Source: Nocardia thailandica NBRC 100428 (lineage in GTDB: Bacteria; Actinomycetota; Actinomycetes; Mycobacteriales; Mycobacteriaceae). Taken from it: 46,803 nt of DNA. The stretch covers positions 1 through 46,803 of the forward strand of contig NZ_BAGK01000097.1 in NCBI RefSeq assembly GCF_000308795.1. The letters are read 5' to 3'. A model generated the notes under the pieces. The model saw only the letters and a list, made by a program, of their open reading frames with translations. It was not told the origin of the DNA and did not search any database. How positions within the stretch are numbered: position 1 is the first letter of the stretch; each line of letters opens with the position of its first letter. Both the position numbers and the translations under genes were made by a program. Shown piece by piece: positions 24,978 to 34,102 of the stretch.

Positions 24978-25705
24978 TGCGGATCCGGGTCGTCAACCCG
25001 AACACCACGGTCGCGATGACCGCGCTGGCGCTGCGCTGCGCCCGCGCGGTCGCCGCGCCCGGCACCCGCGTCGACGCGGCCACCTCGGCCGACGGGCCGG
25101 TCTCGATCGAGAGCCACTACGACGAGGCGCTGAGCGTGCCCGGATTGCTCGCGGAGATCCGGCGCGGGGAGGCCGACGGCGTGGACGCCTACGTGGTGGC
25201 GTGTTTCGGCGACCCGGGTCTGGACGCCGCCCGGGAACTGGCCGCCGGACCGGTGATCGGGACGGCCGAGGCGGCCCTGCGCACCGCGACGCATCTGGGT
25301 CGCGGGTTCAGCGTGGTCACCACGCTGGCCCGCACGCTGGGCCGCGCCGAGGATCTGACGGTGCGCTACGGCGTCGACCGGTTCTGCCGGGGACTGCACG
25401 CGTGCGACCTGCCGGTGCTCGACCTGGAGACCGATCCCGACGCCCGCAAGATCGTCACCGAGGCGTGCCGGGCGGCGGTGGCGGCGGACCGCTCCGACGC
25501 GGTCGTCCTCGGCTGCGCGGGCATGGCCGACCTCACCGCCCACATCACCGCCGAGATCGGGGTCCCGGTGATCGACGGGGTCGCGGCGGCTACCCTCACG
25601 GCGCAGTCCCTGCTCACCCAGGGACTGCGCAAGTCGGGGAGGGGAGAGTTCGCGACCCCACCGGCCAAGCCCTACACGGGGATGCTGGCGCCGTTCGCGC
25701 TGTGA
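24977..25705 (+). CDS. Asp/Glu/hydantoin racemase family protein, 242 aa
   Basis: A cofactor-independent racemase of the hydantoin/allantoin racemase type. The N-terminal RVVNPNTTVAMT is a hallmark of the family, and the two catalytic Cys are in VVACFGDPGLDAAREL near residue 78 and LGCAGMADL near residue 180. It overlaps the permease stop by one base, so the two are co-expressed. It would interconvert enantiomers of the imported ring compound before hydrolysis. Confidence 0.88.
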   Translation: MRIRVVNPNTTVAMTALALRCARAVAAPGTRVDAATSADGPVSIESHYDEALSVPGLLAEIRRGEADGVDAYVVACFGDPGLDAARELAAGPVIGTAEAALRTATHLGRGFSVVTTLARTLGRAEDLTVRYGVDRFCRGLHACDLPVLDLETDPDARKIVTEACRAAVAADRSDAVVLGCAGMADLTAHITAEIGVPVIDGVAAATLTAQSLLTQGLRKSGRGEFATPPAKPYTGMLAPFAL

Positions 25706-25708
25706 CGG

Positions 25709-26059
25709 CTAGGCGGCGGCGGCGGGCGCCAGCTCGCGCAGCACCGCGTCGGCGTCGTCGACGTCGATCACCAGGCGGGTGAATTCGCGGCCCTCGAGAT
25801 CGATGCGGACCGCGCGGCCGGTGAACGTGGTGTCCCAGAACTCCTTGCGGCCCTTGCCGCGATAGACGCCCGCGGCGATGACGCCGGGGAAGAAGGTGCC
25901 GGGCGCCCGGACCCACGGCGGACGCAGGTCCACCTCGGCGGGGACGGCTTCGACGATGTCGCGGCGATCGACGACCACCTGCTGGCGCAGCGCGAGCAGC
26001 CGGTGACCGCCGAGCACGTTCACCGTCACCATGTCCCCGCTGACCTCGACCTCGACCAT
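25709..26059 (-). CDS. Conserved protein with a PH-like beta fold, 116 aa
   Basis: I recognise the pattern but not a named gene: a small beta-rich protein starting MVEVEVSGDMVTVNVLGG, with VDLRPPWVRAPGTFFPGVIA and FWDTTFTGRAVRIDLEG, ending in a helix (DADAVLRELA). It resembles the bacterial PH-like proteins common in actinobacteria. The ATG at 26059 is preferred over an upstream GTG because GAGGTG precedes it by 5 bases. It is convergent with the racemase gene, 3 bases away. A 16-bp ACAGG-N6-CCTGT dyad sits 24 bases upstream. Confidence 0.7.
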   Translation of the reverse strand: MVEVEVSGDMVTVNVLGGHRLLALRQQVVVDRRDIVEAVPAEVDLRPPWVRAPGTFFPGVIAAGVYRGKGRKEFWDTTFTGRAVRIDLEGREFTRLVIDVDDADAVLRELAPAAAA

Positions 26060-26083
26060 CGCGCACCTCACTCAACGTCCGGA

Positions 26084-26099
26084 ACAGGAACTTCCCTGT
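26084..26099. promoter_or_regulatory. ACAGG-N6-CCTGT dyad
   Basis: A 16-base inverted repeat upstream of the minus-strand PH-like gene. The rest of 26060-26250 contains no gene I can support. Confidence 0.25.
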
Positions 26100-26253
26100 C
26101 CATGGTCGGCGTCCGGCCTGACCCGGGACTGTGGCGATGCTGTGAATTCACCAAGGATTCGCGGGCATCCACCTATGGCGATATGCGCATCGAACGCTAT
26201 GCGCTGGTAGCGGCCGGTGCCGTGGGGATCGCGACGGGAAAAAGCTGGGGACG

Positions 26254-26280
26254 GGGCCCGCCGGAATATCCGGCGGGCCC
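26254..26280 (-). terminator. Intrinsic terminator of the 2-MIB/idi operon
   Basis: A perfect 12-bp stem GGGCCCGCCGGA/TCCGGCGGGCCC with a 3-base loop, 5 bases beyond the idi stop on the minus strand, followed after a short gap by a run of five T (AAAAA at about 26239-26243 on the plus strand). It is the clearest rho-independent terminator in the window. Confidence 0.8.
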
Positions 26281-26285
26281 GCGCG

Positions 26286-26864
26286 TCAGCGGGCCGCGGA
26301 CCCCGCGGTGCGGTACGCCCGCACCGCGATGTCGAGGACCTCGGCGAGCCACGGCGTGTACTGCTCGGGCGTCGCCCGGACCGCCTCCGCGAGTTCGGCG
26401 GGGTCGGTCCAGGCGAACGCGGCGACCTCGTCCGGGTCCGGCACCGGATCCGGGCCCGTGTGGGTGCCGACGAGGACGTGGTCGTACTCGTACTCGACCC
26501 GGCCCGTGCCGGGATCGCCCGCGCGGTAGGTGAAGGTGCCCGCCTCGCGCAGCTCGGCGGTGAGGCCGAGTTCCTCGCCGAGCCGGACGCGCCCCGCCTC
26601 GAGCACGGGTTGCCCGGGGGCCGGATGGCCGCAGCAGGTGTTGGCCCATTGCAGGGGGAAGCGGGTCTTGACCGCGGCCCGCTGCTGGATCAGCACCCGG
26701 CCCGCCCGGTCGAACAGCAGCACCGAGAACGCGCGATGCAGCCGGCCGGGCGGCTGATGGGCCAAGGACACCGACAGCGTGCCCGCCGACCTGCCCGACT
26801 CGTCGACCAGCTCGACCGGGAGGGCCTCGCGGTCGGCCGACGAGCCGGAACGGGGATCGGTCAC
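26286..26864 (-). CDS. idi: Isopentenyl-diphosphate delta-isomerase, type I (Nudix), 192 aa
   Basis: Interconverts IPP and DMAPP, balancing the two C5 units used to make geranyl diphosphate. The catalytic Cys is in NTCCGHP near residue 77, the Nudix-type GRVRLGEELGL is near residue 91, and the catalytic Glu is in VEYEYDHVLVG near residue 125. The length fits bacterial type I enzymes. The GTG start overlaps the methyltransferase stop by 4 bases (GTGA), so it is the last gene of the 2-MIB operon and its supply of DMAPP is tied to the pathway. Confidence 0.94.
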   Translation of the reverse strand: MTDPRSGSSADREALPVELVDESGRSAGTLSVSLAHQPPGRLHRAFSVLLFDRAGRVLIQQRAAVKTRFPLQWANTCCGHPAPGQPVLEAGRVRLGEELGLTAELREAGTFTYRAGDPGTGRVEYEYDHVLVGTHTGPDPVPDPDEVAAFAWTDPAELAEAVRATPEQYTPWLAEVLDIAVRAYRTAGSAAR

Positions 26865-27733
26865 CTGTTCACCTTATCGGCGACGATCATCAGGTACTGG
26901 AAGCTGCCCTCCTTGTAGGCGGTCAGGAACGGCTGCTCCACCCCGGTGGCGAGCTCCGAGTGGGTGCGCATCTCCCAGTAGGGGATGGTGTCGGGTGTCA
27001 GGTCGAGCACGTGGATCGGGACCAGCCCGTTCTCCGACAGCGCCCGGAAGTACTCGCTGCGCGGGTGGATCATGCAGCCGTAGTGCGCGTCGATCCAGCT
27101 GACCGAGGCCGACTTGCCGCCGGTGACGTCGTTGGAGCAGCCGGTGATGCACACGTAGCGGCCGCCCGGCTCCAGCAGCCGGGAGAACTCGGCGAACAGG
27201 TCGAACAGGTTGACGTACATGGTGGTCTCGTTGGTCCAGATGCCCCGCATCGACCCGGACTCGAAGCCGGTGTCGAGCATGTTGCGGAAGTGGAAGCGGA
27301 CCTTGTCGCTCACGCCGCGGTGCTCGGCCTGCTCGTTGGCGAAACCGACCTGGTACTCGGAGATGGTCACGCCGTCCACCCGGCAGCCGAAGCGCTGGTT
27401 GGCCATGATGCTGGTGCCGCCGCGGCCGGAACCGCCGTCCATCAGCCGGTCGCCGGGGCGGACGTCGCCCAGCTGATCGAGCAGCAGGTCGGCCTGGTCG
27501 GTCTCCAGGCGGTGCAGCTCCTTGACCAGGCGGTCCTGCTTGCCCTCCTCGGGACCCTCCAGGATGGTCCAGTCGGGCGCGCCGATGCCGTAGTGGTGGT
27601 GGTAGAGCCCATCGACCTCGCCGAGCTTGGTGTTGACCCGGTCGTCGTTGGGATTGTCGTTCCAGTACGCTGCGACGGAACGCTGGTAGCTGGTGCGCAG
27701 CACGGTGTCGGCCTGCGGGTCGATCGTGGTCAT
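26861..27733 (-). CDS. Geranyl diphosphate 2-C-methyltransferase, 290 aa
   Basis: Methylates geranyl diphosphate at C2 with SAM, giving 2-methyl-GPP, the substrate of 2-MIB synthase. The SAM motif DGGSGRGGTSIM is near residues 99-110. Characteristic segments are YWNDNPNDDRVN near the N-terminus, GLYHHHYGIG near residue 42, and TNETTMYVNLFDLF near residue 167. The ATG at 27733 overlaps the synthase stop by 4 bases. The gene order shell-synthase-methyltransferase is that of Streptomyces 2-methylisoborneol loci, which makes the assignment firm. Confidence 0.95.
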   Translation of the reverse strand: MTTIDPQADTVLRTSYQRSVAAYWNDNPNDDRVNTKLGEVDGLYHHHYGIGAPDWTILEGPEEGKQDRLVKELHRLETDQADLLLDQLGDVRPGDRLMDGGSGRGGTSIMANQRFGCRVDGVTISEYQVGFANEQAEHRGVSDKVRFHFRNMLDTGFESGSMRGIWTNETTMYVNLFDLFAEFSRLLEPGGRYVCITGCSNDVTGGKSASVSWIDAHYGCMIHPRSEYFRALSENGLVPIHVLDLTPDTIPYWEMRTHSELATGVEQPFLTAYKEGSFQYLMIVADKVNR

Positions 27734-29133
27734 GCGGACACATCCTCTCGGGGACGGGGATCGGTGGACGGGGTCTCGTCGTTCGGGGCGTCGTGATAGC
27801 GGCGGCTGTCCGCGTGCCAGGCGCGGTTGCCGCCCATCCAGGCCCACAGGCCGGCCAGGAACCGGCGGAGTTCGGGCGAGCCTGCGGCCGCCAGCGGCGC
27901 CGCCTCCCGCTCGAACCGGTGCATCAGCTCGTCGTGCACCTCGGCGGTGCGGACCACCGCGTCGGCGCGGCTGCACCGCTCCTCGGCGGCCAGCACGGTC
28001 GGCAGATTGAACTCGCGCCCGTTCGACAGGTCCTCGCGGGCCATCGAATACAGGTCGTTGACCATCTGCGCGGCCAGGGCCGCCGTGGTGGTGACCCGGC
28101 GCACGGCCGGGTCGGTGTACTCCGGGGCGCCGAGCTCGTAGCCGCCGACGGCGTCGATGGGCGCCATGCACGGCAGGAAGCTGTGCGGCTGGCGGTTGGT
28201 CAGGTACTCCCACACCGGCGGCATCCGCCCCGCTGCCCGCCAGCCCGCCTCGGCACCGAGCGCGATGAACCAGCCCGCGATCTCGGTGCGCAGGCGGCCC
28301 AGCTGCTGCGGGGTCGAAAAGGTGCCGAGATGGGCGAAGGAGGTGCGGAAGGCACGCAGGATCGGGTCCGCCTGCATGGCCGTCTCGAGCTGGGCGGCGT
28401 AGCGGGCGGGCAGGTGGACGGGGTCGATGGCGGCGGCCGCCAGCTCGAGCCGGGGGCCGAGTTCGGCCTCGGCGCTGGACGGGGTGCCGTCGGGAGCGGT
28501 GTCGTCGGCGTCCTCCTCGCAGTAGTAGTCGTCGACCGACCACTCCGACACCGCCGCCTTGGCCGCGGCCAGCAGCGGATCGGGGTCGTCGCAGTCGGGG
28601 TGGGCGAGCATGATCAGCCGGCCGAAGTCGGCCTTCTCCAGTTCGTCGAGCCGCCCGGCGTAGAGCCCGATGTCGCGGGCCCACGCCAGCAGTCCGACAT
28701 TGACCGCCTCGGCCAACGCCGGGTCGTCGCGTTCGGGCGGCGGGCAGTACAGCGGGGGAATCCGCTGCCCGGACCGCGTCGCCCGCTCGCCCGCGCCGTC
28801 CGGGGCGTGCCGCCGGGCCACGGGACTCGGCGGATGCAGCCCCGCGGCGAACGAGGGGGCCTGCCGTCCGGTGGGAGGACCCGCGGGCACGCCGTCGCCT
28901 ACCGCCGGGGATCCGGCGGGCCGGGGCAGCCGTAAGCCCGCGCTGCCCAGGCCGCTCGGCCCGAGCAGGCCGCGCGGCACGGTCCCCGCCGTCATGGTGG
29001 CCGCGGTGGCCGGTCCGGCGGGGCGGAAGAGCGTCGGGGGAGCGGTGGAGTGGGTGGTTCGCAGGAGCGCCGCGACGATCGCGGCCAGGTCGCCGGCGGC
29101 GGCGGGCGCGGCCGCGCGGCGGAGCACGGACAC
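27730..29133 (-). CDS. 2-methylisoborneol synthase (class I terpene cyclase), 467 aa
   Basis: Cyclises 2-methyl-GPP to the earthy odorant 2-methylisoborneol. The metal-binding aspartate motif is DDYYCEED at residues 201-208, the NSE motif is NDLYSMARE at 359-367, and the C-terminal signature WMGGNRAWHADSRRYH is at 432-447. About 120 N-terminal residues are Pro/Gly/Ala-rich and predicted disordered, including LLGPSGLGSAGLRLPRP near 56-72. In Streptomyces such N-terminal regions load the enzyme into an encapsulin shell, and the shell gene here is 10 bases upstream. The GTG start gives the longest N-terminus; a GTG two codons later is also possible. The compartment assignment is inferred. Confidence 0.95.
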   Translation of the reverse strand: MSVLRRAAAPAAAGDLAAIVAALLRTTHSTAPPTLFRPAGPATAATMTAGTVPRGLLGPSGLGSAGLRLPRPAGSPAVGDGVPAGPPTGRQAPSFAAGLHPPSPVARRHAPDGAGERATRSGQRIPPLYCPPPERDDPALAEAVNVGLLAWARDIGLYAGRLDELEKADFGRLIMLAHPDCDDPDPLLAAAKAAVSEWSVDDYYCEEDADDTAPDGTPSSAEAELGPRLELAAAAIDPVHLPARYAAQLETAMQADPILRAFRTSFAHLGTFSTPQQLGRLRTEIAGWFIALGAEAGWRAAGRMPPVWEYLTNRQPHSFLPCMAPIDAVGGYELGAPEYTDPAVRRVTTTAALAAQMVNDLYSMAREDLSNGREFNLPTVLAAEERCSRADAVVRTAEVHDELMHRFEREAAPLAAAGSPELRRFLAGLWAWMGGNRAWHADSRRYHDAPNDETPSTDPRPREDVSA

Positions 29134-29143
29134 CTCGCCGCCC

Positions 29144-30550
<1,407 letters not shown>

Positions 30551-30573
30551 GGGCGATCCTCACCTCGATGCGA

Positions 30574-30691
30574 GCCGGCGATCGGCCGGCGGGTCGGGGT
30601 CGTGCGTTGGACGCGACGATGGAGAGCGGCAGAGCATGACGAATCCGTCCGGAAGGCACGACGATTCACGCCGGCAGCGATGCCGGACGGA
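30574..30691 (-). promoter_or_regulatory. Structured 5' leader of the 2-MIB operon
   Basis: There are three inverted repeats within about 120 bases: GCCGGC-N5-GCCGGC (30574-30590), the 9-bp pair TCCGTCCGG (30644-30652)/CCGGACGGA (30683-30691), and CCGGCA-GCGA-TGCCGG (30671-30686). The last two share bases 30683-30686 and so are mutually exclusive folds. The first sits next to the ribosome-binding region of eshA. Confidence 0.4.
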
Positions 30692-30764
30692 AAGGATGTG
30701 CCATCTGAAGAGAGAACTCGGTACACGAGAAGTGCGGTGACGCAATGTGTTCCGGACGACAACG

Positions 30765-30794
30765 ATGGTAGGCCCCGGTCCGCTTGCCGCGCAA
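30765..30794 (-). promoter_or_regulatory. Candidate promoter of the 2-MIB operon
   Basis: Minus strand TTGCGC (30794-30789), an 18-base spacer and TACCAT (30770-30765). Transcription would begin near 30757, leaving a leader of about 205 bases before eshA. Confidence 0.4.
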
Positions 30795-31150
30795 CGTATT
30801 GCGGCCTATGCGAACAATTCTTCCGGGGTCGTGGGATGAATGGTGCCGGTGATCGGGCGGGTGTCGGAATGCCGGGCCGAGGTGCCGGTGAATCGTGCCG
30901 GAAATCGCGATTCCGGGCGCGGTGCCGCGGCGCCCCGTTAATATGCGCCGGCCCCGGACCGGCCCCGGGTGACCGTTCCGTCGGTGCCGCGTGCCGCCGC
31001 CCGGGCGACGCGCCCGGTGTGACCCGAATCGCCGGAACATGGGACCAGTCACAGCCGACACATAATGGAGTCCCGGTGTGGTTAGCTCTGGAGAACACAT
31101 CGGGGTGTGTGAGGTGCGTCACTGTCTTGAAGGTGGGCCAGGTGGGAACG

Positions 31151-34102
31151 GTGGATTTCAGTCCAAAAGGTGTGGCCGGTTCGGTGCAGCGGTTGCTCGC
31201 GACCGCGCAGAACGGGCTGGAGGTGATCCGCTTCGGCGGGCTGTCACACGATGTCGAGTCCTCGCCGTTCGAGGTCGTCGAGCGCAGGCGCATGTACCGG
31301 CTGCGCCACTACTTCCCCGACGACACGACGCCGGGCCGCCCGGTCGCCCTGCTGATCCCGCCGCTCATGGTGAACGCCGACATCTGGGACGTGAACGCCG
31401 CCGAGGGCGCGGTCGGCATCCTGCACGCCGGCGGGATCGACTGCTGGGTCATCGATTTCGGGTCGCCGGCCAGCGAGGAGGGCGGCTGGCAGCGTGACCT
31501 GGCCGACCACGTGCTCGCCGTCGACGCGGCCATCGACACCGTCGGCGAGGCCACCGGGGCCCAGCTGCACCTGATGGGGTACTCGCAGGGCGGCATGTTC
31601 GCCTACCAGGCCGCGGCCTACCGCTACGGCAAGGGCGTCGCCTCCATCGTGACCTTCGGCAGCCCGGTCGACATCGTCGCGGGCATGCCGTTCGGCCTCC
31701 CCTACGGGCTGGTCTCGGACGTGGCCGACTTCCTGGCCGACCACGTGGTCAACCGGCTGCCCATCACCGACTCGATGGTGCGCCTCGGCTTCCAGATGCT
31801 CGATCCGGTCAAGACCGCCAAGTCCCGGGTCGACTTCCTCCTGCAGCTGCACGACCGCGAGGCGCTGCTGCCCAAGGAGCGCCAGCGCCGCTTCCTCAAC
31901 AGCGACGGCTGGGTCGGCTACGCCGGTCCGGCCGCGGCCGACCTGCTCAAGCAGTTCGTCGCGCACAACCGGATGATGCTGGGCGGCTTCGTGATCCGCG
32001 ATCACCCCATCTCCCTGGCCGAGCTGCGCTGCCCGATCCTCGCCTTCGTCGGCGAGGTCGACGACATCGGCCAGCCCGCCGCCGTGCGCGGCATCGTGCG
32101 CGCGGCCCCCAACGCCGAGGTGTTCGAGGCCAGCCTGGTCGCCGGGCACTTCGGCCTGGTCGCGGGCAGCATGGCCACCCGGCACACCTGGCCGCTGGTC
32201 CGGGACTGGGTGGGCTGGCTCGAGGGCGCGGGGCCGCTGCCCGAGGAGATCGTGCCGATGGCCGAGCACACCGCGAGCTCGGCGCCGCGTACGGCCGCGA
32301 CCCGGGTCATCCACACCGCCGCCAGCCTCGCCGAGGCGGGGGTCGGGGTCGGCAAGGCCCTCGAGGGCATCGCGGGCAACACGATCCGCGGCTCGATCGA
32401 GATCGCCGGCGAGGCCGCGCGGGCGCTGCCGCGCCTGACCCGGCTCGGCCTGATCCAGCCGCACACCCGCATCTCGCTGGGCAAGCTGCTGGCCGAGCAC
32501 GCGCGGCGCGCCCCCCTGAAGGACCTGTTCCTCTTCGACGACCGCGTGCACACCCACGCCGCCGTCGACGTGCGCATCGACAACGTGGTCCGCGGGCTGA
32601 TCTCGGTGGGGATCCGCCCGGCCACCCGGGTCGGCGTGGTCATGGAGACCCGGCCCTCGGCCCTGGCCGCCGTCGCGGCGCTCTCCCGGCTCGGCGCGGT
32701 CGCGGTCCTGCTCGCCCCCGGCGCCGAGCTGCATCGCGCCATCGAGCTGACCGGGGTCAAGACTCTGATCACCGACCCGGAGAACCTGCGCACCGCCGCG
32801 GCCACCGGCAGCCGCGTCCTGGTGCTCGGCGGCGGCGACGCCCGCACCCTCGACCTGCCCACCGGCGACCGGATCGTCGACCTCGAGCAGATCGACCCGG
32901 CCAAGGTCCGCGTGCCCGCCTGGTACCGGCCCAACCCGGGCCTGGCCCGCGAACTGGCGTTCGTGCTGGTGCTGGGTACCGGCGACCGCCTCGAGGCCAA
33001 GTACATCACCAACCACCGCTGGGCGCTGTCGGCCTTCGGTACCGCCTCGGCCGCCGACCTCGACCACCGCGACACCGTGTACTGCCTGGCGCCGCTGCAC
33101 CACTCCTCGGGACTGCTGGTCAGTCTCGGCGGCGCGGTGGCGGGCGGCAGCCGGATCGCGCTGGCCCGGCCCTCGGGGCCCGGCCGGTTCGCCGAGGAGG
33201 TGCACCGCTACGGCGTCACGGTCGTCACCTACACCTGGACCATGCTGCGCGACCTGCTCGACGCCGAGGTCTTCCCGGCCGGGCGCACGCACCCGATCCG
33301 GCTGTTCATCGGGTCGGGCATGCCCGCGGGCCTGTGGCGTCGCACGACCGAGCAGTTCGCCCCCGCGCGGGTGCTGGAGTTCTACGCCTCCATCGACGGC
33401 GACGTCGTGCTGGCCAACGTGCCCGGCATCAAGATCGGATCCAAGGGCAGGCCGGTGCCCGGCACGGCCAAGGTCGAGCTGGTCGCCTACGACCCGGTCA
33501 GCGAGCAGATCCTGGTCGGCGACGACGGGTTCGCCCGCCGCTGCGCCGACAACGAGCCCGGCCTGCTGCTCGGCAAGGCCGTCGACGGCGGGGACATCTC
33601 CGACGGCGGCCTGCGCGGGGTCTTCCACGCGGGCGACGCGTGGTGGCCGACGGAGAACCTGTTCCGCCGCGACGGTGACGGCGACTACTGGCTGGTCGAC
33701 CGCCGCGACACCGTCATCCGCACCCCGCGCGGCCCGGTGTTCACCCAGCCCGTCACCGACGTGCTCAACGACATCACCCCGGTCGATCTCGAGGTGGTCT
33801 ACGGCCTCGACGCGGGCGGGCGCACCCTGGCGGTGGCGGCGCTGAGCGTGCGCGAGGGCTTCGACATCGAACCCGACGACGTGACCGAAGCGCTGCGGGC
33901 GCTGCCGAGGGCGCAGCGACCCGACCTGGTCCACGTCGTCGACGACATCCCGCGCAGCCCCAGCTTCCGCCCGTCGGCCGTCGCCATCCAGGCCCGCGGC
34001 CTGCCCGCGCCGGGCCCGGACACCTGGTGGTACAACGCCGAATCCGACGCCTACGAGGTCCTCACGGAGGCCGTCGCCCAGGATCTGTACGGCGGGAACT
34101 GA
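31151..34102 (+). CDS. Fusion of PhaC-like alpha/beta hydrolase and AMP-ligase-like domain, about 983 aa
   Basis: The N-terminal domain (about 1-370) resembles PHA-synthase/acyltransferase-type hydrolases: LIPPLMVNADIWDVN near 68 and the nucleophile elbow GYSQGG at 143-148. A helical linker (about 380-460) follows, then an acyl-CoA-synthetase-like domain (about 465-983). In the ligase part the usual motifs are weak: VLGTGDRLEAK replaces the P-loop SGTTGxPK, YASIDGD replaces YGxTE, FHAGDAWW and DRRDTVIRTPRG keep the core, and PRSPSFRPSA has Arg where the catalytic Lys of PRTxxGK belongs. Similar fusions are annotated as acyl-CoA synthetases in mycobacteria. The GTG at 31151 follows AGGTGGG; GTG 31142 is an alternative. 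A role in lipid or mycolate metabolism is a guess. Confidence 0.83.
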   Translation: MDFSPKGVAGSVQRLLATAQNGLEVIRFGGLSHDVESSPFEVVERRRMYRLRHYFPDDTTPGRPVALLIPPLMVNADIWDVNAAEGAVGILHAGGIDCWVIDFGSPASEEGGWQRDLADHVLAVDAAIDTVGEATGAQLHLMGYSQGGMFAYQAAAYRYGKGVASIVTFGSPVDIVAGMPFGLPYGLVSDVADFLADHVVNRLPITDSMVRLGFQMLDPVKTAKSRVDFLLQLHDREALLPKERQRRFLNSDGWVGYAGPAAADLLKQFVAHNRMMLGGFVIRDHPISLAELRCPILAFVGEVDDIGQPAAVRGIVRAAPNAEVFEASLVAGHFGLVAGSMATRHTWPLVRDWVGWLEGAGPLPEEIVPMAEHTASSAPRTAATRVIHTAASLAEAGVGVGKALEGIAGNTIRGSIEIAGEAARALPRLTRLGLIQPHTRISLGKLLAEHARRAPLKDLFLFDDRVHTHAAVDVRIDNVVRGLISVGIRPATRVGVVMETRPSALAAVAALSRLGAVAVLLAPGAELHRAIELTGVKTLITDPENLRTAAATGSRVLVLGGGDARTLDLPTGDRIVDLEQIDPAKVRVPAWYRPNPGLARELAFVLVLGTGDRLEAKYITNHRWALSAFGTASAADLDHRDTVYCLAPLHHSSGLLVSLGGAVAGGSRIALARPSGPGRFAEEVHRYGVTVVTYTWTMLRDLLDAEVFPAGRTHPIRLFIGSGMPAGLWRRTTEQFAPARVLEFYASIDGDVVLANVPGIKIGSKGRPVPGTAKVELVAYDPVSEQILVGDDGFARRCADNEPGLLLGKAVDGGDISDGGLRGVFHAGDAWWPTENLFRRDGDGDYWLVDRRDTVIRTPRGPVFTQPVTDVLNDITPVDLEVVYGLDAGGRTLAVAALSVREGFDIEPDDVTEALRALPRAQRPDLVHVVDDIPRSPSFRPSAVAIQARGLPAPGPDTWWYNAESDAYEVLTEAVAQDLYGGN

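Follow-up and report, generated by a model that had tools for sequence, protein, structure and literature searches.

A probably shared isoprenoid isomerase gene, likely to be coupled through its start signals to an encapsulin and 2-methylisoborneol cassette in Nocardia

The earthy odorant 2-methylisoborneol (2-MIB) is one of the chief reasons why drinking water and fish can taste musty. The stretch of DNA considered here (the window) comprises 46,803 nucleotides of Nocardia thailandica NBRC 100428 (contig NZ_BAGK01000097.1). It contains one run of four genes on the minus strand, encoding a family 2B encapsulin shell, a 2-MIB synthase, a geranyl pyrophosphate (GPP) methyltransferase and a type I isopentenyl pyrophosphate (IPP) isomerase (idi), all of which score above the curated cut-offs for their families (Table 1). 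We consider it fairly likely that the isomerase is a shared enzyme, placed under the start signals of the operon and coupled to the odorant cassette (shell, synthase and methyltransferase), rather than an enzyme dedicated to 2-MIB. Gene order, the availability of an overlapping start, a codon constraint, conservation of the active site and the history of the site can be read directly from the genomes compared. A first-pass annotation of the window had recognised the four-gene run and had proposed that idi is its translationally coupled fourth gene, linking precursor balance to odorant synthesis. This is partly supported: it was right on the likely coupling and too narrow on the purpose. At this locus, a link between precursor supply and a compartmentalised terpene pathway, made through a start signal, can be put to the test, and natural losses at the site show which of its genes need each other.

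The genes are closely packed. The shell and synthase genes are separated by a gap of 10 bases, the start of the methyltransferase gene lies in the stop of the synthase gene (a 4-base ATGA overlap), and the methyltransferase stop and the idi start overlap as GTGA. The earlier description, that each start overlaps or abuts the previous stop, thus holds for the second and third junctions and not for the first. A GTG start for idi is found at exactly -4 in 54 of 56 idi-bearing loci, the exceptions being N. pseudovaccinii (L100, 150 bases) and Nocardiopsis (L114, 77 bases); L numbers denote loci and G numbers genomes. Because the start taken in this count was the codon nearest the methyltransferase stop, the figure speaks for the availability of an overlapping start and not for its use. 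The constraint on a codon within the methyltransferase gene is the stronger evidence of coupling.

This codon lies in a predicted ribosome-binding site for idi (UAAGGUG) within the tail of the methyltransferase gene; in the window there are five bases between its last G and the idi GTG. The Shine–Dalgarno consensus is UAAGGAGG. The tail, with the aspartate codon GAT, reads UAAGGUGG in many species and UAAGGUGA in the window, both close to that consensus. The tail aspartate codon is GAT in all 61 scored Nocardia methyltransferase genes of this kind, i.e., 53 of 53 from operons (55 loci, with L088 and L108 left out for their damaged methyltransferases) and 8 of 8 from operons lacking the synthase (of 11 such loci, those of G257, G291 and G154 not being included). 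At the other aspartate positions of the 53 operon genes, GAT is used 225 times in 1058 (21%). In methyltransferases without idi, the tail aspartate codon is GAC in 80 of 81 scored genes: 4/4 from a Nocardia clade without idi, 59/60 from Streptomycetaceae (64 loci, 61 with a scored methyltransferase, 60 of these with the tail aspartate residue), 16/16 from other members of the order, and the second operon of G280. There are 195 conserved degenerate codon columns in the 61 Nocardia genes, of which 16 are fixed for one codon; the tail aspartate column is the only one of the 16 with A or T in the third position, and 12 other conserved aspartate columns have 0–34% GAT. Because the methyltransferase genes share ancestry, we give no probability for this constraint, and the useful contrast is the GAC of the Nocardia clade without idi. 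An overlapping stop and start thus occur together with a constrained internal ribosome-binding site whose codon constraint is absent where idi is absent, and idi is very probably translationally coupled to the methyltransferase gene, as had been proposed.

The linkage is a feature of the genus. Named proteins among the 120 best matches to the window synthase are from Nocardia, and idi follows downstream in 56 of 60 named synthase loci (55 of 59 in Nocardia, and one in Nocardiopsis). Across 118 Nocardia genomes, a sample which overlaps with the named loci (e.g., L098 is the G212 locus), idi lies within 4 kb downstream on the same strand in 62 of 82 synthase-family rows, and downstream on the same strand in 59 of the 62 rows of at least 500 bits; the exceptions among the latter are G264, G316 and the second copy of G280. 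The G280 genome has two separate operons of shell, synthase and methyltransferase (L213, L214), and idi is present in only one of them.

The history of the site can be followed because a divergent acyl-CoA synthetase-like gene marks it in 57/60 operon loci, 7/8 synthase-less loci and 26/26 loci in which idi is kept at the same site without shell, synthase or methyltransferase. The exceptions are L105 and L120, near contig ends, L114, without the gene, and L277, with a shorter frame at a contig end. The 26 cassette-free loci were drawn from 38 sampled genomes with a type I idi and no synthase-family match; the other 12 were left out, 11 being unread and G298 lying on too short a contig. From 27 loci first classed as idi alone, L271 was left out as another isomerase lineage; L264, on a 4.5-kb contig, was also left out. 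On a tree of one flank gene, on which all counts of cassette history rest, there are 12 changes of cassette state, and supported branches force at least nine of these. A tree of 76 isomerases places the enzymes of the operon, synthase-less and cassette-free loci in a single clade, without separation by locus type; the paralogous type I isomerases found in some Nocardia lie outside it.

Direct comparison of loci shows where the cassette ends. L081 and L291 match at 95.5% over 8.1 kb with the cassette cleanly absent from one of them, and beyond the gap the two align again from about 20 bases short of the methyltransferase stop; in three further pairs (L108/L289, L067/L295 and L110/L288) the alignment resumes within the 3′ end of the methyltransferase gene. 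Methyltransferase remnants 5′ of idi were found in 8 of the 26 cassette-free loci by two tests combined: alignment at p ≤ 0.015 with 200 shuffles (six loci: L272, L287, L288, L289, L290 and L292) and an exact 18-base junction pattern (six loci: L272, L289, L290, L291, L292 and L300). No remnant passed either the alignment or the junction-pattern test in the other 18, among which L295 has a methyltransferase match of about 21 bp in the pair alignment, yet below the threshold of the shuffle test, and L298 gave p 0.04 at another part of the methyltransferase protein. Since methyltransferase tails remain at eight sites, these sites are losses rather than gains, and insertion of the cassette before an old idi is rejected for these eight only. 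Among what is left at these sites is the stretch with the predicted start signal of idi. Decay is in progress elsewhere: the synthase is split over two frames, with idi present, in N. seriolae, N. niigatensis and N. acidivorans (L115, L116, L117, also G133), and the shell and methyltransferase genes of N. africana (L108) are partly deleted, again with idi present.

It is therefore extremely improbable that the junction arose recently or by chance in the window strain, the reading which the first-pass annotation had named as its own refutation. In favour of such a reading, the cassette or idi is missing from some species that share a supported clade of 11 rows on the flank tree. The genus-wide conservation of the linkage, overlap included, refutes it, and where remnants are found the upstream genes are missing by loss.

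Several points weigh against the reading of a shared isomerase coupled to the odorant cassette. Four Nocardia species, N. ignorata, N. caishijiensis, N. rosealba and N. coubleae, which form one clade on the flank tree, keep shell, synthase and methyltransferase without idi. In the flanks examined, some of which end at contig ends, idi was found in none of 60 loci of a family of the same class taken to be Streptomycetaceae (chosen along a list of at least 147 matching genomes), in none of six loci from a sample of the phylum (four of them Streptomycetaceae) and, with the sole exception of L205, in none of 17 loci from a sample of the order; thus, idi is not needed for such loci. The two idi-bearing loci outside Nocardia, L114 (Nocardiopsis) and L205, have GAC at the tail aspartate, so the embedded start signal is a Nocardia trait. 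L205, in which idi is split by a frame change and its ATG overlaps the methyltransferase stop (ATGA), is a case of the overlap without the signal. The window genome has a second isomerase, of type II, in a cluster (L058, G000:C69) with GHMP kinases, diphosphomevalonate decarboxylase, HMG-CoA reductase and a polyprenyl synthase, and its position there means that it is likely to be tied to the mevalonate pathway. Finally, idi also adjoins shell genes in G174, G268 and G031, where the cyclase has two domains; this weakens a strict argument from C10 stoichiometry, which is not the whole reason for idi.

In these last three genomes (L282 in G174, L297 in G268, L311 with L038 in G031), two family 2B shell genes flank a two-domain terpene cyclase (frames of 802, 804 and 775 amino acids, respectively) and an isomerase of the same lineage adjoins, divergently in G031. 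In another genus of the family, L031 (G037) has a weak match to the cyclase family and, immediately after it, an isomerase from a distant lineage of type I.

Compartmentalised 2-MIB biosynthesis, with a family 2B encapsulin in the 2-MIB operon, has reportedly been described for Streptomyces by Andreas and Giessen in 2024 (Nat Commun 15:9715). Most of the 60 Streptomycetaceae loci do have shell, synthase and methyltransferase in one run, as the first-pass annotation stated for Streptomyces, and differ from Nocardia in the lack of a nearby idi. Their methyltransferases also differ, mostly ending in DRV or DRI with GAC and without the extension that bears GAT in Nocardia. The Nocardiopsis locus has an idi after the methyltransferase gene, from another isomerase lineage, and its synthase groups with those of Streptomycetaceae in the trees; it represents a second recruitment of an idi to the same position.

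The active site of the isomerase is conserved. All nine active-site residues checked, in a numbering which we take to be that of E. coli Idi, are present in the window protein, which belongs to the type I isomerases, and they are invariant in 56/56 operon loci (Nocardiopsis included), 26/26 cassette-free loci and 11/11 synthase-less loci. The window idi thus resembles E. coli Idi (PDB 1i9a/1nfs), of the Nudix family, in these residues and differs from it in its operon context. Its identity with the other lineage of type I isomerases, which was read in eight loci of Nocardia, is 36–42%. With cut-offs of at least 127 bits for type I and E up to 1e-60 for type II (many genomes being scored on the 25 best candidates), the operon idi is the only IPP isomerase found in 33 of the 62 genomes that carry it; of the other 29, 26 have a type II enzyme and seven another type I, four having both. 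As idi stays after loss of the cassette and is the sole isomerase found in about half of the cassette-bearing genomes sampled, it is probably shared with general isoprenoid metabolism, and a tie to odorant synthesis alone is not upheld. Type II isomerases occur in 4 of 5 genomes without type I versus 37 of 113 with it (Fisher p 0.049), which is no more than suggestive of compensation in Nocardia lacking idi. In one Nocardia genome, G262, neither a type I (E ≤ 1e-20) nor a type II (E ≤ 1e-60) isomerase was found.

A general isomerase could also have come to stand there as a passenger, the cassette upstream sharing its promoter region without any specific benefit for 2-MIB. The survival of idi after the cassette, the finding of no further isomerase, type I or type II, in 33 of the 62 genomes and the absence of idi near the Streptomycetaceae loci all fit such an arrangement, as does a CRP-like site by the divergent gene in both cassette-bearing (31/58) and cassette-free (17/26) regions. 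An overlapping start kept in 54 of 56 loci and a GAT codon in 61 of 61 genes are, however, tighter than a passenger requires, and the Nocardiopsis locus took a different idi lineage to the same position. On balance, we regard a mere passenger as unlikely and favour the shared, coupled isomerase.

How coupling and sharing might be combined can be set out as follows. The cassette lies directly upstream of idi and the run would be read as a single transcript; ribosomes finishing the methyltransferase would re-initiate at the overlapping GTG of idi. Given that start and the ribosome-binding site inside the methyltransferase gene, the isomerase is likely to be made in step with the odorant enzymes. 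GPP is built from IPP and dimethylallyl pyrophosphate (DMAPP) in a ratio of 1:1, whereas IPP is in excess in the output of the methylerythritol phosphate (MEP) pathway. By turning IPP into DMAPP, the isomerase would provide for GPP formation, while probably also serving the rest of the cell. From this chemistry and from the second recruitment in Nocardiopsis, we infer that idi benefits 2-MIB synthesis. The synthase, predicted to make 2-MIB, would be loaded through its GPSGLG motif into the shell, which is predicted to assemble and hold cargo; the isomerase and methyltransferase, neither of which carries the loading motif, would stay in the cytosol.

That the isomerase itself might be cargo, acting inside the shell, is very unlikely. 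It is encoded in the same run as the shell, yet a GPxGLG-type motif is found in 0 of 56 isomerase frames and, by the strict pattern, in 41 of 59 synthases; the GPP synthase is not in the run, so GPP must in any case come from elsewhere. With the loading motif absent, the isomerase was rejected as cargo.

Eleven Nocardia loci keep shell, methyltransferase and idi without the synthase (L267, L268, L269, L270, L273, L277, L278, L280, L303, L304 and L305). In four of them (L267, L269, L278 and L280) nothing but the N-terminal GPxGLG region is left, as a short frame, and one of the first eight retains scraps of the catalytic domain of the synthase. An unlinked second cyclase of the same family (422–460 bits) occurs in 15 genomes, which include all 11 of the synthase-less ones. 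Eight of these loci had been picked as idi loci before the link with the second cyclase was noticed, and those of G257, G291 and G154 were picked for the second cyclase. Of the remaining four genomes, G288 has the full operon and G350 a partial synthase match, and the loci of G302 and G309 were left out. Seven of the 15 second cyclases were read (five from the synthase-less genomes): a GLG motif near the N terminus is present in 7/7, and the strict G-P-x-G-L-G in 4/7. Three control cyclases, for which the pattern was slightly stricter, are without an N-terminal GLG motif.

A full synthase is present in 1 of the 15 genomes with a second cyclase versus 60 of 103 without one (Fisher p 0.00016, the genomes not being independent). 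Among the synthase-less genomes, the site still has shell and methyltransferase genes in 11 of 11 with a second cyclase versus 0 of 26 without one (p 1.2e-9, with the same dependence among genomes); two of the 26, G174 and G268, have shell genes elsewhere, with the two-domain cyclase. On the flank tree, the synthase-less state (seven rows) accounts for six changes, at least five of them forced. In the synthase tree, the second cyclases (six rows) fall in a supported clade with eight cyclases from other genera of the order; the methyltransferase gene adjoins all eight of these and shell genes are near six.

Perhaps, then, the operon of shell, methyltransferase and idi is a chassis with an exchangeable cyclase, the unlinked cyclase being loaded in trans and fed with methyl-GPP by the old operon. 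We put this forward tentatively, from the distribution and phylogeny of the genes. In genomes with no such cyclase, the site has lost shell and methyltransferase as well and idi stands alone, in several species behind a methyltransferase tail that would provide its start signal. Among the loci read, these two genes persist at the site only with a MIB-synthase-like cyclase in the genome, whereas idi persists regardless. If the swap of cyclases is real, family 2B shells accept cargo encoded elsewhere, and lists of cargo drawn from operon neighbours alone would be incomplete.

The association of IPP isomerases with family 2B operons is already published: the available part of PMC8346489 reports an enrichment of isopentenyl pyrophosphate isomerases in the 2B operons of terpene cyclases, so the linkage as such was known. 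Those operons are like the present one in having an IPP isomerase; restriction to Nocardia, coupling, a history of losses and replacement of the cyclase are not given in that part of the paper. Among the titles and abstract openings listed, from a collection with few subscription papers and preprints, none dealt with idi coupling, cassette losses or a cyclase swap. What is new here is the predicted embedded start signal of idi, the survival of idi after the cassette, and the 11 synthase-less loci with their possibly exchangeable cyclase.

The cargo assignment of the synthase comes from its NF041167 score together with the N-terminal GPxGLG motif, which matches the loading consensus GPTGLGT proposed in PMC8346489. 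Its solved relatives are 4zq8, 3v1v and 3v1x. According to PMC10520479, activity in vitro is reduced, and solubility improved, by the proline-rich N-terminal region. The shell protein is an HK97-type sequence with an inserted domain like those that bind cyclic nucleotide monophosphates; its profile matches place it in family 2B, and its nearest solved chains are 9bix, 9bje and 9bhu. Control by cyclic nucleotides through the shell was set aside, as the inserted domain binds no cyclic nucleotide according to PMC12407261. Opposite the shell gene, at 30015–30524 on the plus strand, there is a match of 97.1 bits to Rfam RF02735 (Sernc350, a Saccharopolyspora antisense RNA), which may be a mere reflection of the underlying coding homology.

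Table 1. Positions of the four genes, their embedded signals and flanking elements in the window
Feature	Position	Strand	Evidence or remark
Family 2B encapsulin shell gene, 468 aa, ATG	29144..30550	-	NF041163 732.9 bits (cut-off 400), PF19307, PF00027
2-MIB synthase-like terpene cyclase, 467 aa, GTG	27730..29133	-	NF041167 534.5 bits (cut-off 400)
GPSGLG motif, synthase residues 58-63	28945..28962	-	matches proposed loading motif GPTGLGT
GPP 2-C-methyltransferase, 290 aa, ATG	26861..27733	-	NF041943 485.4 bits (cut-off 400)
GATAAGGTG in methyltransferase tail, predicted idi ribosome-binding site (UAAGGUG)	26870..26878	-	codon constraint; putative role
GTGA overlap, methyltransferase stop and idi start	26861..26864	-	4 bases
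Type I IPP isomerase idi, 192 aa, GTG	26286..26864	-	NF002995 184.5 bits (cut-off 127); TIGR02150 107.7 (cut-off 105.8)
Hairpin 3′ of idi, 12-bp perfect stem, likely terminator	26254..26280	-	starts 5 bases after idi; folding z -4.58
CRP/GlxR-like palindrome, divergent promoter region	31108..31123	.	one mismatch to TGTGA-N6-TCACA; putative role
Divergent acyl-CoA synthetase-like gene, 989 aa frame, start not fixed	31133..34102	+	NF005898 1578.2 bits

The clear terminator first described straight after idi is borne out in its perfect hairpin and close position, and less so in its other features: the run of U begins 10 bases past the stem, and the hairpin is absent from the list of a consensus terminator scan. 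A scan for sigma-70 consensus promoters over 25600–31400 found none, which counts neither way on a single transcription unit. The palindrome in the divergent promoter region is one which we take to be of the CRP/GlxR type, presumably with the consensus TGTGA-N6-TCACA. With up to two mismatches and within about 80 bases of the divergent gene, it is found in 5/8 synthase-less regions, besides the operon and cassette-free counts given above; anywhere in the region, it is found in 42 operon, 6 synthase-less and 20 cassette-free loci, the mean for shuffled sequences being 12%.

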